Shown: in pieces, positions 13,159-29,794 of the stretch
Position numbering within the stretch: position 1 is the stretch's first letter
Layout of the letters: each line of letters begins with the position of its first letter
DNA from: Halanaerobium hydrogeniformans
Lineage (GTDB): Bacteria; Bacillota; Halanaerobiia; Halanaerobiales; Halanaerobiaceae
Direction of reading: 5' to 3'
Assembly: GCF_000166415.1 (NCBI RefSeq)
Contig: NC_014654.1
Coordinates: forward strand, 2,294,001-2,358,000
DNA length: 64,000 bases
Translations under genes and position numbers: made by a program
Notes under the pieces: model-generated
What the model saw: the letters and a program-made list of their open reading frames with translations, nothing else
Database searches by the model: none
Told to the model about the DNA's origin: nothing

Positions 13159-14472
13159 TTAAAAGATAAAATATGCAGCAAATACAACAGCTAATACATA
13201 TACTAACCAGTGAACATCTTCACCCTGTCCAGTAAATAATTTTACTAATGGATAAACAATAAATCCAAAAGCAATACCATGAGAAATTGAATAAGTTAAT
13301 GGCATTATTATCATGGCCATAAAAGCTGGTAAGATCTCAGTGAAGTCACCCCAGTCAAGTTTAGTAATATTTGTCATCATCATCGTTCCCACAACAATTA
13401 AGGCTGGAGAAGTAGCTGCAGCTGGTACAATACCAATTAAAGGTCTAAAAAATAGAGCTAATAAGAATAAAGCAGAAACAACAACTCCAGTTAATCCAGT
13501 CCGACCACCATCTCCAACACCGGCAGCAGACTCAACATATGTTGTTACAGTACTTGTACCAAAAAGTGCTCCACCAGTAGTACCGATTGCATCAGCTAAA
13601 AGAGCCCTGCTGGCTTTTGGCAAATCGCCATTTTCATCTAAATAACCAGCCTGCTGACTTACACCAACAAGAGTTCCAGCAGTATCAAACATATCAACAA
13701 ATAAGAAAGATAAAATAACTCCAACCATACCCAGACTTAGGGCTGACTGAATATCCAACTGAAATAGAACTTCAGACCAATCTGCCATCTGAGGCATTGC
13801 AACTAAGCCATCAAAAGCTGGTGTAACACCATTTATCCAGCCAAATGCTGTTGATAAGAGGATACCCCAGAGAAGTGCTCCCTTAATTTTTCTGGCATGT
13901 AAGATACCAGTTACTATAAGACCAAACAGAGCAACCAGAGCAGGTCCTGAGAACAGATCACCCATTGCTATAAGGGTTGCCTCATCTGCCACAACAATAT
14001 TTGCATTTTGTAGACCAATGAAGGCAATAAATAATCCTATACCAGCACTAATACCTGTTTTAAGTGCCATTGGAATACTGTTTACAATCATTTCCCTTAC
14101 AGGAGTAACACTTAAAATAATAAATAAAATACCTTCTAAAAAGATTATTCCTAAAGCAACCTCCCATGGCACTCCCATCCCAATTACTACTGAATAGGCG
14201 AAAAATGCATTTAATCCCATTCCAGATGCAAGAGCAAAAGGATAGTTAGTTAAAAATGCCATTGCCAGAGTACCTAAAACAGCACTCATAATTGTAGCAA
14301 TTAAAACACCTTCAAATGGCATTCCAGCATCACTAAGTATTGAAGGGTTAACAAAAATAATATAGGCCATCGTCATAAAAGTAGTAAAACCAGCAATAAT
14401 TTCAGTTTTGACATTTGTATTATTTTCTTCTAGTTTAAAAACATTTTCTAAAAACCCATTATCTGTACTCAT
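13159..14472 (-). CDS. AzgA/PbuG-type purine permease
   Basis: This is a cytoplasmic-membrane proton symporter for adenine, guanine, hypoxanthine or xanthine (NCS2 superfamily, AzgA group). The 437-aa protein begins with the family N-terminus (TEIIAGFTTFMTMAYIIFVNP), continues with SGMGLNAFFAYSV and has FVDMFDTAGTLVGV and GTSTVTTYVESAAGV, both highly conserved in AzgA/PbuG. About 12-14 membrane segments are apparent. The ATG follows AAGGAGG. The gene has its own consensus promoter and a purine riboswitch in a leader of about 400 nt, which supports purine transport directly. It is the last gene of the purine island. Confidence 0.95.
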   Translation of the reverse strand: MSTDNGFLENVFKLEENNTNVKTEIIAGFTTFMTMAYIIFVNPSILSDAGMPFEGVLIATIMSAVLGTLAMAFLTNYPFALASGMGLNAFFAYSVVIGMGVPWEVALGIIFLEGILFIILSVTPVREMIVNSIPMALKTGISAGIGLFIAFIGLQNANIVVADEATLIAMGDLFSGPALVALFGLIVTGILHARKIKGALLWGILLSTAFGWINGVTPAFDGLVAMPQMADWSEVLFQLDIQSALSLGMVGVILSFLFVDMFDTAGTLVGVSQQAGYLDENGDLPKASRALLADAIGTTGGALFGTSTVTTYVESAAGVGDGGRTGLTGVVVSALFLLALFFRPLIGIVPAAATSPALIVVGTMMMTNITKLDWGDFTEILPAFMAMIIMPLTYSISHGIAFGFIVYPLVKLFTGQGEDVHWLVYVLAVVFAAYFIF

Positions 14473-26193: not shown

Positions 26194-28488
26194 TTATTTA
26201 CAACCTCCTTTAGAGAGGGCTCTTCCAATTAAAACTCGTTCTAGATTAAGAGGTAAAGAACGAATTCTTTTTCCTGAAGCATGAGCAACGGCATTTGCTA
26301 TAGCAGCACTGGCAAGTTCAAGGGTAGGTTCTCCAACAGATTTAGCACCAAATGGACCATCTGGATCAGGGTTCTCTACTATTATCGGTTTAATATCAGG
26401 CATATCTTTAATGGTAGGTATCATATAGTCGTGAAAATTTTTGCCTTTAATCTGACCGGCTTCTACTTCCACTTCTTCCATTATGCCATAACCTAAACCC
26501 ATCACAACCCCACCATAAATCTGTCCTTTAACATTAGCAGGATTAATTGCTCTACCAACATCATGAGCTGCTGCCATGTTAAGTACTGTTAATTCTCCCG
26601 TTCCTGTATCTACTTCGACCTCTGCAATCTGACATCCATAAACATAGGTAAAGTATGGGTTGCCACAGCCCTTTTCTTCATCCCATGATATAGCAGGTCC
26701 TTTATACCAACCATAAGCAGAAAGCAGTATACCCTTATTTATCATTTCTGCTGCCAGGTCAGAAAAAAGGGCCAGTCGATCAGAATTTTGATTATATAAA
26801 AAGCCGTCTTTTAATTCCAACTCTTCTATAGATATTTCAAATTTTTGAGCAGCAAAATCTAAAATGCGTTTTTTTAATTTTTCCGCAGCATTTTTTATAG
26901 AGTTTCCTCCAATTAAAGTAGCCCTTGAGGCTACAGTTGAACCACTATCTGGAGTAAATGTAGTATCAACCTCCATATAATCTATCTCATTAAGAGTAAC
27001 TCCTAGTACTTCTGCCGCAATTTGAGAAAAGATGGTTTTTAAACCCTGACCGTTTTCTGCCAGACCACTGTAAACAGCAACACTACCATCTTTATTAATC
27101 TGAATTAAAGATGCTGCTGCATCAACAGCTTCTGCACCCAGACTGCATCCCCTAAAACTAATAGAAAGACCTATTCCTCTTTTTTTATCACCAGCTTGAG
27201 CCTGAGAATATTTTTCTCTTTTTGCTTGATAATCAATTGCTGCCATTGCCTTATCCATTACTTCTTCTAAACTTACAGTATGTCCATCTAATTTTTGACC
27301 ACTTGCAGTAATTGATCCCTGACGATAAATATTTTTTTTGCGAAGTTCTACTGGACTCATACCGAGTTCTTCTGCTAATTCGTCCATCAAAGATTCCTGA
27401 GCAAAAATTATCTGAGGAGAACCATAACCACGCATTGCACCTGTATAAGGATTATTTGTATAATAGCCATAGGTATCAGTTTTGACATGTTCTAATTCAT
27501 AGGGTCCAGTAGCTTGTACAACACTTCGCCAGGTCACAAAAGGTGTTTGACAGGCATAGGCTCCACTATCTGCAACTGCTTCTATTTCCATTGCCGTTAG
27601 TTTGCCTTCTTTAGTGGCCCCGATCTTATATTTTAATTGATAGGGATGGCGCTTATAGCTTTCAGTAAAAGACTCTTCGCGACTGTTGACCATTTTCACA
27701 GGTCTTTTTGTTGCTAAAGCCATTACTGCAGCTCTTGCAGCCATAGCAGAAACAACCTCATCTTTGCCACCAAAAGAACCACCAATATGATTTTGAATAA
27801 CCCTAACCTCGGCCAATTCAGCTCCTAAAACTGTTGCTACTGCAGTTCTTGTAGCATAGGGATTCTGGATCGACCCATATATTGAAACAAGGTGATTTTC
27901 ATCTTCTGGAACAACCACAACTGCTTCAGGCTCAAGATAACTGTGCTCGATCAATTGTGTAGAATATTCTCTTTCCAAAATCACATCTGCCTGGGCAAAG
28001 CCCTTTTCTACATCACCTTTACGAAGGGGATGGTGAATCACCTGGTTATCGTCTTTTTCAGGGTGAATTTTTAATGCCTCATTCTTTCTAGCCTCATCAA
28101 GATCATAAATGGCTTCTAATTCCTCATATTCTACCTTGATCTTTTCAAGCGCGGCTGCTGCCTCTGCTTCACTTTCTGCAGCAACCATTGCCACTCCATC
28201 ACCAGCTAAAAGAACTCTATCCTCAGCTAAAACTTGTTGATCTTCTACGATTACCCCAAAAAGATTGTTTTTAATATCAGCAGCTGTAAATACCCCCTTT
28301 ACACCTGGCATTTTTTCTGCCTCTTCAGTTTCTATATTTATAATTCGGGCATGCGGATACTTGGTTCTCAAAACTTTAGCATAAAGTTGATTTGCAAATT
28401 CTAAATCGGCTCCAAATTTAGCTTTACCGGTAACTTTTTCATAAGCATCGACCCTTTTTACACCTTTATTTACATGTTTAAAAGCCAT
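26194..28488 (-). CDS. Xanthine dehydrogenase molybdenum-binding subunit, intact
   Basis: This 764-aa large subunit contains both molybdopterin domains. IGGSFGGKDEV and GAMRGYGSPQ lie in the first, AENGQGLKTIFSQ in the second, and the catalytic glutamate in GPFGAKSVGEP near the C-terminus. With the FAD and 2Fe-2S genes that follow it forms a three-subunit xanthine dehydrogenase (about 82, 33 and 17 kDa), the same plan as E. coli XdhABC and clostridial enzymes. It is the first gene of the operon; GGAGG precedes the ATG. Whether a labile selenium ligand is present cannot be told from sequence. Other purine or heterocycle substrates are possible. Confidence 0.93.
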   Translation of the reverse strand: MAFKHVNKGVKRVDAYEKVTGKAKFGADLEFANQLYAKVLRTKYPHARIINIETEEAEKMPGVKGVFTAADIKNNLFGVIVEDQQVLAEDRVLLAGDGVAMVAAESEAEAAAALEKIKVEYEELEAIYDLDEARKNEALKIHPEKDDNQVIHHPLRKGDVEKGFAQADVILEREYSTQLIEHSYLEPEAVVVVPEDENHLVSIYGSIQNPYATRTAVATVLGAELAEVRVIQNHIGGSFGGKDEVVSAMAARAAVMALATKRPVKMVNSREESFTESYKRHPYQLKYKIGATKEGKLTAMEIEAVADSGAYACQTPFVTWRSVVQATGPYELEHVKTDTYGYYTNNPYTGAMRGYGSPQIIFAQESLMDELAEELGMSPVELRKKNIYRQGSITASGQKLDGHTVSLEEVMDKAMAAIDYQAKREKYSQAQAGDKKRGIGLSISFRGCSLGAEAVDAAASLIQINKDGSVAVYSGLAENGQGLKTIFSQIAAEVLGVTLNEIDYMEVDTTFTPDSGSTVASRATLIGGNSIKNAAEKLKKRILDFAAQKFEISIEELELKDGFLYNQNSDRLALFSDLAAEMINKGILLSAYGWYKGPAISWDEEKGCGNPYFTYVYGCQIAEVEVDTGTGELTVLNMAAAHDVGRAINPANVKGQIYGGVVMGLGYGIMEEVEVEAGQIKGKNFHDYMIPTIKDMPDIKPIIVENPDPDGPFGAKSVGEPTLELASAAIANAVAHASGKRIRSLPLNLERVLIGRALSKGGCK

Positions 28489-28530
28489 TACTGCACCTCC
28501 AGTTAATAATAAAGTTAATTAAACAGATAG

Positions 28531-28593
28531 ACTTCCTTCATTTTTGCTTAAAAAAGCATTTTCCCCTCTGGGAAATGTCAAAATGAAGAAAGT
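28531..28593 (-). ncRNA. Structured leader RNA of the xdh operon (three-way junction, candidate riboswitch)
   Basis: On the minus strand a 14-bp closing stem (28593-28580 with 28544-28531, one mismatch) encloses two hairpins: TTTCCC with GGGAAA around an AGAG loop, and TGCTT with AAGCA around T4. It begins about 8 nt after the predicted transcription start and ends 40 nt before the ribosome binding site. It is not a purine aptamer (no TATGG/GTTTCTA core). The rest of this 322-nt gap, 28615-28810 (which includes the possible -35), is AT-rich with no gene I can support. Confidence 0.5.
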
Positions 28594-28608
28594 CCATATT
28601 TTAACTCT

Positions 28609-28614
28609 ATTATA
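28609..28614 (-). promoter_or_regulatory. -10 box of the xdh operon
   Basis: A perfect TATAAT on the minus strand would place the start near 28602, just ahead of the leader RNA. The -35 region 17 nt upstream (TGTTAA) is weak, which suggests activator dependence. Confidence 0.5.
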
Positions 28615-28810
28615 TAACAATGTATTTTAAATTAACAGACTTTTCTCTCCTCTTCGGGAAGGATTAAGTTTAAGATAATTGCAATTATAGCAACAACTAT
28701 GCTAAATCATTTTTTATCCTTAACTAATTTATTAGCTTAAAAATTGTTAATTCCTGCAATTAAATGCCAAAAATGATTATTATATATGTATACAGAGCTT
28801 TTGACTTCAA

Positions 28811-29794
28811 TTATTTACCACCCATATTTAAAGTCATTACAGCCTTTGCTGTATGCAGTCTGTTTTCTGCTTCAGTATATACTATCGAATGAGGACCATC
28901 TATGACAGAATCTTCTACTTCATTACCACGATCAGCAGGCAAGGCATGCATGTACATAACATCATCATCTGCCAGGGCCATCCTTTCTTCAGTACATTTC
29001 CAATCCTTGTTAGCTTCTAATAAATCATCAATCACATCATCAGCTTGATTACTGACCCAACTTCCCCAGTTTTTAGGAATTACTATATCTGCATCCCGAT
29101 AAGCTTCATCTTGATCATGGGTTATTTTAAATTGACCATTGTTTGCTTCTGCATTCTTTCTCGCTTTTTCAATCACCCAGTCAGGCATCTCATAGCCCTC
29201 TGGATAAGCAAGGGTAACATCCATTCCATAGCGCGGGAAAAGTAATGTCTGGGTTAAAGGAACAGAAATAGGTTTTTTATGGCTGGTAGCATAAGCCCAG
29301 ATAATTGAAACTTTCAAATTGCTTTTTGCTTTTTTCTTTTCTATTATTGTCATCAAATCTGCAATACCCTGCATTGGATGGTAAAGGTCACACTGGAGAT
29401 TCATAACAGGAACTTTTGCGTGTTCCGCCAGTGAACGCAGATACTTATTTCCTACTTCCCAGACACAATTTCTACAGGCTAAGCCATGACCATAACTACC
29501 CAGTATTATTCCTGTATCTTTAGCAACCTCACCATGAGAAACCTGCATAGTACTTGTGTCTAAAAAATTAGCATGACCTCCTAATTGAGCTAAACCAGCT
29601 TCCATCGAATTTCTGGTTCTGGTGGACTGCTCAAAAAACATTAAAAATGCAGTTTTATCCCTCAAATATGGGGTAGGAACTCCCATCGCGAATTTCTTTT
29701 TTAAATCAAATGAAACTTCAAGCAGTGTATCTATCTCATCTTTTGTCCATTCTTCTAATGTAATAAAATCTTTCCCTTTTAATTGGGTCTCCAT
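28811..29794 (-). CDS. ygeW: YgeW-type knotted carbamoyltransferase
   Basis: This belongs to the aspartate/ornithine carbamoyltransferase superfamily. The YgeW branch occurs in anaerobic purine-degradation clusters and its acceptor substrate is not settled. The 327-aa protein has the carbamoyl-phosphate loop FEQSTRTRNSMEAGL, the 80s-loop-like DTSTMQVSHGEVAKDTG, NLQCDLYHPMQGIADLMTI and the late active-site HALPADRG. The ATG follows GAGGAGG. It is read in the same direction as the block to its right; ygeY ends 103 nt upstream, across a palindromic repeat element. Confidence 0.93.
   Translation of the reverse strand: METQLKGKDFITLEEWTKDEIDTLLEVSFDLKKKFAMGVPTPYLRDKTAFLMFFEQSTRTRNSMEAGLAQLGGHANFLDTSTMQVSHGEVAKDTGIILGSYGHGLACRNCVWEVGNKYLRSLAEHAKVPVMNLQCDLYHPMQGIADLMTIIEKKKAKSNLKVSIIWAYATSHKKPISVPLTQTLLFPRYGMDVTLAYPEGYEMPDWVIEKARKNAEANNGQFKITHDQDEAYRDADIVIPKNWGSWVSNQADDVIDDLLEANKDWKCTEERMALADDDVMYMHALPADRGNEVEDSVIDGPHSIVYTEAENRLHTAKAVMTLNMGGK

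Follow-up and report, generated by a model that had tools for sequence, protein, structure and literature searches.

A conserved three-way-junction leader RNA upstream of the xdh operon in Halanaerobium

Introduction

Secondary structures at the 5' end are known to stabilise mRNAs (reviewed in PMC3997798), and in cggR hairpins downstream of RNase Y sites set the abundance of the cleaved products, such hairpins also having been predicted in glnRA (PMC11780869). Other leaders sense metabolites. Xanthine-II aptamers, for example, are associated with xanthine dehydrogenase genes in Firmicutes (PMC9295807), and NMT1 (xanthine-I), whose two-stem junction has conserved bulges at J1-2a and J2, has been reported only in Proteobacteria (PMC7373994). 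The enzymes of anaerobic purine-degradation clusters of the kind considered here were recently characterised in a paper whose main text does not mention riboswitches (PMC12507026).

In the present study we analyse the leader of the xdh operon in such a cluster of Halanaerobium hydrogeniformans, whose genome is a single contig of 2.613 Mb; the window, meaning the whole stretch of 64,000 nucleotides that was analysed, covers contig positions 2294001-2358000. To our knowledge, the regulation of anaerobic purine (urate) degradation clusters is largely unknown, and to such a cluster the leader adds an uncatalogued and strongly selected RNA.

Results

Genomic context and structure of the leader

Encoded on the minus strand, the leader separates xdhA (26194-28488), the first gene past it, from a ygeW-like carbamoyltransferase gene (28811-29794); xdhA is followed by genes for the FAD and 2Fe-2S subunits. 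The locus is part of an anaerobic purine-degradation cluster, in which xdhABC-like genes occur together with ssnA, ygeY and an 8-oxoguanine deaminase-like gene. Relatives have a permease-type gene whose end lies directly upstream of the xdh promoter, and in H. polyolivorans this gene (L072 1509-2852) is placed between the ygeW-like gene and xdh. The permease has been deleted in the window, where 28707-28632 (minus strand) retains no more of it than roughly the final 21 codons and the sequence that precedes the start; the closest other protein in the genome, and the only similar one, is 37% identical to it. The features of the locus are as follows.

28609-28638, minus strand: xdh promoter CTGTTAATTTAAAATACATTGTTATATAAT, with a perfect -10 at 28614-28609 and a weak -35
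28527-28597, minus strand: whole three-way-junction leader RNA (fold z -6.9; match to covariance model R1, 57 bits, E 8e-11)
28580-28597, minus strand: 5' arm of P1, AUGGACUUUCUUCAUUUU, pairing with 28544-28527; arm, junction and P2 foot together identical at 23-26 of 26 positions
28557-28577, minus strand: P2 arm, CAUUUCCCAGAGGGGAAAAUG, with an invariant foot and a free loop
28546-28557, minus strand: P3 arm, GCUUUUUUAAGC, 12 nt here and up to about 85 nt in relatives
28527-28544, minus strand: 3' arm of P1, AAAAUGAAGGAAGUCUAU, with one-sided changes all to G-U in the mRNA sense
28495-28501, minus strand: Shine-Dalgarno sequence GGAGGTG of xdhA, identified by sequence, with an unpaired probability of 0.75 in the predicted leader
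26194-28488, minus strand: xdhA, molybdenum subunit of a xanthine dehydrogenase-type enzyme (NCBIfam XdhA_XDHase, E 1e-178, under the curated cut-off)

The computed fold of 28597-28527 is a three-way junction of -30.4 kcal/mol, compared with a mean of -12.2 kcal/mol for shuffled sequences, none of 200 of which folded as well (z -6.9). A longer stretch of the leader gave a z-score of -5.0, and the antisense strand of 28597-28527 folded less stably, at -22.2 kcal/mol. P1 forms an unbroken stem of 18 pairs in this fold and of 16 pairs in the comparative model; its mean pairing probability is 0.91-0.99 in each species, with a predicted opening cost of 10-15 kcal/mol. Only about four bases of the junction are unpaired, and the G at 28557 is able to pair in either P2 or P3. 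An earlier note, made from the sequence of the window alone, had described at the start of the xdh operon a three-way junction with a closing stem and two hairpins; the fold and the comparisons below bear this out, with a closing stem longer than the 14 bp it had given. The perfect TATAAT box that it had noticed lies at 28614-28609, and P1 begins (28597) 11 nt past this box instead of the proposed distance of about 8 nt. At the other end of the structure, about 25 nt separate the 3' arm of P1 from the ribosome binding site (GGAGGTG), near which the note had placed this end, and 38 nt separate it from the ATG of xdhA (28488).

Distribution, covariation and selection

With the leader DNA and the XdhA protein as queries we searched 38 genomes of the order, found XdhA homologues in 24 of them and read the upstream regions directly. 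A covariance model, R1, built from three relatives with the window sequence excluded, recovered the window leader (57 bits, E 8e-11) and found one true locus per genome, always before xdhA, in nine Halanaerobium-family genomes (the window genome, G011, G012, G015, G016, G017, G019, G020 and G022; named relatives are H. kushneri, H. saccharolyticum strains and H. polyolivorans). R1 found no match in G021, in the other 14 genomes that have an xdhA homologue or in four Halanaerobium genomes that lack the gene, and a search of 398 genomes of the phylum, with stricter filters than those used for the order, gave nothing further. Of the ten family genomes with xdhA, nine have kept the leader nearly unchanged, G021 being the exception.

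In the alignment of the nine sequences (eight distinct rows), which was fitted to the model so that pairing counts lean towards it, 98.7% of cells are paired, compared with 37-63% when the partners are slid. Double compensatory changes occur at four pairs spread over P1, P2 and P3, in agreement with RNAalifold, and all five pair positions with one-sided changes go to G-U in the mRNA sense, none to A-C; the earlier note had named covariation among homologous leaders as the test of its proposal, and on this point the proposal holds. P1 has 10 invariant pairs among its 16. The foot of P2 (CAUUU/AAAUG) is likewise invariant, its distal helix being swapped between clades (UCUCAA/UUGAGA versus CC/GG), and P3 is closed throughout by GCY...RGC, where a double change replaces C-G by U-A. 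Both P2 and P3 are always paired as the sequence and length of the P2 loop and the length of P3 (12 to about 85 nt) vary. In three leaders (L033, L035 and L037) the P3 arm of about 85 nt has a longer structure of its own, and the core is constant.

Between species, the 5' arm, junction and P2 foot are identical at 23-26 of 26 positions (88-100%) and the 3' arm of P1 at 15-18 of 19. Since the fourfold-degenerate sites of xdhA are only 35-59% identical between the same species, selection on the 5' arm must be strong. Furthermore, every one-sided change yields G-U and the antisense strand has the weaker fold, which suggests that selection acts on the mRNA and counts against a DNA cruciform, a DNA operator or an antisense RNA. 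The leader of the xdh operon is a genuine conserved cis-acting structured RNA, fixed upstream of one operon.

Relationship to known riboswitches

Comparison of the window and six relatives with Rfam, at the gathering thresholds and with permissive ones (E up to 10), placed no family at the leader, and membership of a known riboswitch family, for which the earlier note had proposed to look, is not supported; matches to a miRNA, XIST and a Phe leader were unrelated and at chance level. The note had judged that the leader does not fit the purine aptamer, and this is confirmed: it is unmatched by the Purine covariance model at E up to 10 and does not belong to the purine/xanthine-II riboswitches, while the same model finds a true copy at 14837-14738. 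That copy is a canonical purine riboswitch (minus strand, 73 bits) upstream of a purine permease-type gene (13159-14472). Moco (RF01055) gave no match at the xdh leader, which lies outside that family; two Moco riboswitches score over the cut-off elsewhere, at contig positions 2390032-2390154 and 831247-831370. NMT1, whose presence among the 4227 models we assumed, is absent from the Rfam matches at E up to 10 and differs in architecture too, and ssnA is not named among those matches, the presence of an ssnA model in the library being unconfirmed. In the literature that our search covered, no xdh leader or Halanaerobium RNA motif has been described.

We also looked for the machinery by which such a leader might switch. 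Past the 3' arm of P1 the window shows no terminator. A scan of the window had offered P2 and its following run of six U as a terminator, with the run lying inside the structure and confined to the window's clade, and this candidate was rejected because the other clade has no U run. Blocking the 5' arm of P1 shifted access to the ribosome site in no consistent direction across species. The same arm was rejected as a mask of the ribosome site, its duplexes of -8 to -10 kcal/mol being no better than those of shuffled sequences (fraction as good 0.21-0.56). Nor was a competing or alternative fold found that could serve as an expression platform, so that none of the platforms considered (terminator, ribosome-site sequestration, competing helix) is seen at this leader. 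These absences, together with a junction of about four unpaired bases, make a riboswitch reading weak. The earlier note's idea of a switch sensing a purine or the molybdenum cofactor accordingly did not gain from the analysis: with P1 constitutively formed, no terminator and no consistent effect on the ribosome site, a sensor is conceivable but unsupported. What stands of that reading as a whole is a structured xdh leader with its own conserved promoter; a known riboswitch family and a visible switching machinery do not.

A metabolite riboswitch of a new class, responding to xanthine, urate, guanine or the molybdenum cofactor through a platform that is unrecognisable by eye or by folding, seems to us unlikely. 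The adjoining operon is purine-catabolic, the three-way junction is the scaffold of purine riboswitches, with xanthine-II being linked to xanthine dehydrogenase genes (PMC9295807), and A20, C21 and the A that follows P3 are invariant in the junction. Set against this are not only the missing Rfam match and the missing terminator, ribosome-site masking and competing fold, but also a very narrow distribution in a single gene context and a conservation that resides mostly in helices around about four unpaired junction bases, unlike that of known aptamers. If the leader does sense a ligand, its junction aptamer would be unusually small. A more specific form of this idea, in which a compact three-way-junction riboswitch found only in Halanaerobium would sense a purine-breakdown intermediate or the molybdenum cofactor and control xdh mRNA via decay, not via termination or ribosome-site masking, we regard as quite unlikely.

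Promoter and 5' end of the transcript

The promoter has no good -35, as the earlier note had stated: a promoter scan gave no match for the TATAAT box at 28614-28609, and the -35 region reads CTGTTA. Present as a single copy in the genome, the promoter is identical at 30-34 of 34 bases across seven species, compared with 35-59% at the fourfold sites of xdhA, and it is kept in G021, where the three-way-junction RNA is missing. In some relatives its -35 part overlaps the permease stop codon. Near-invariance of the promoter (28638-28609) over about 30 bp, retention without the RNA and the position of the -35 over the permease stop suggest a candidate activator site.

The spacers on either side of the element, which separate it from the promoter and from the ribosome binding site, are variable in length and poorly conserved, barring a short 3' flank (28526-28511, minus strand) that is kept in relatives as about UCUGUUUAAU. 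This flank resembles the promoter block TCTGTTAAT as well as the AU-rich RNase Y sites found near structure. In G021 (L040) an unrelated strong hairpin, ACCGGAGC...GGCTCCGGT, stands directly after the promoter in the place of the three-way junction, and the leader of this genome folds at -21.7 kcal/mol. Estimated from distances, the predicted mRNA start lies about 4-5 nt before P1 in three species; in six of the nine genomes it lies about 28-31 nt before P1.

These positions bear on the reading of the element as a generic stem that stabilises the mRNA from its 5' end and has no specific partner. Such a stem would fit its 5'-terminal placement in three species and the unrelated hairpin at the same place in G021, but it leaves unexplained the 10 invariant pairs of P1 and the invariant foot of P2 at near-saturated neutral divergence, and in six genomes the element is away from the predicted 5' end; we consider this reading unlikely.

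Operator, leader peptide and mobile element

We find it quite unlikely that each arm of P1 is instead a copy of a near-palindromic DNA site for a repressor or activator, with the RNA fold as a by-product. Both arms are strongly conserved in sequence and in several species each contains a dyad, ATGG-N7-CCAT; however, this within-arm dyad decays in the window's clade, where the pairing between arms is kept by a double change, P2 and P3 remain hairpins though their sequence changes, and every one-sided change gives G-U in the mRNA sense. In addition, the spacing of the arms varies by about 85 bp, and the arm sequence is not in excess elsewhere in the genome. An upstream ORF or leader peptide starting at an AUG in P1 (MDFxHF[N/D]IS...) is very unlikely: although all nine leaders contain this AUG-initiated frame, of 11-19 codons, no species has a ribosome binding site upstream of it, its length is variable, and its conserved first nine codons change nearly only by amino-acid replacement (codons 4 and 7), with almost no silent changes. 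The long near-perfect inverted repeat might bring to mind a miniature transposon (inverted-repeat element) or a palindrome arisen by chance; both are effectively refuted, since each of the nine genomes has a single copy, always at the orthologous site, and compensatory changes are seen.

Discussion

We propose that the xdh leader is a constitutively folded cis-acting 5' RNA that would determine how stable xdh mRNA is or how it is processed, probably together with a protein that recognises its sequence, a model to which we would assign a probability of roughly 0.42. With a constitutive fold and neither a switch nor a terminator nor a mask of the ribosome site, the leader most likely acts on the fate of the mRNA. 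Transcribed from its dedicated promoter, it may shield xdh mRNA from 5'-end-dependent decay, and where the upstream permease message is co-transcribed it could uncouple the stability of xdh from that message, with a nuclease or regulatory protein specifically reading the near-invariant helices. Protection of the mRNA 5' end is suggested by the hairpin that follows the promoter in G021 and by the three species in which P1 lies 4-5 nt past the predicted start, but a stem about 28-31 nt from the predicted start, as in six of nine genomes, is not ideal for this purpose. Since the permease of relatives ends just before the promoter, the element sits where an operon-internal stabilising hairpin would, in the manner of cggR-gapA and glnRA (PMC11780869). 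Stability alone fails to explain the conservation, as a generic protective stem would be expected to need no near-invariant helices; the near-invariant helix sequence suggests a specific protein as the simplest guess, and conserved helices with free loops point to protein recognition of the helix or junction.

With the xanthine-II and guanine-class riboswitches the leader shares a three-way junction before purine genes, but the conserved letters of those aptamers are found in joining regions that form the binding pocket, whereas the joining regions of the xdh leader amount to about four bases. NMT1 resembles it in its purine-oxidation gene context and differs in having two stems in place of a three-way junction. 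The Moco RNA (RF01055) has a molybdoenzyme context in common with it and a different architecture, of 135 positions. The hairpins of cggR-gapA and glnRA in B. subtilis are likewise constitutive, are situated between a promoter or upstream gene and the gene that they protect, and have no expression platform. We know of no near-invariant helix sequence across species in these hairpins, and a like mechanism for the xdh leader is a proposal. The xdh leader is an orphan leader RNA of a familiar kind, genus-level in its distribution and previously uncatalogued.
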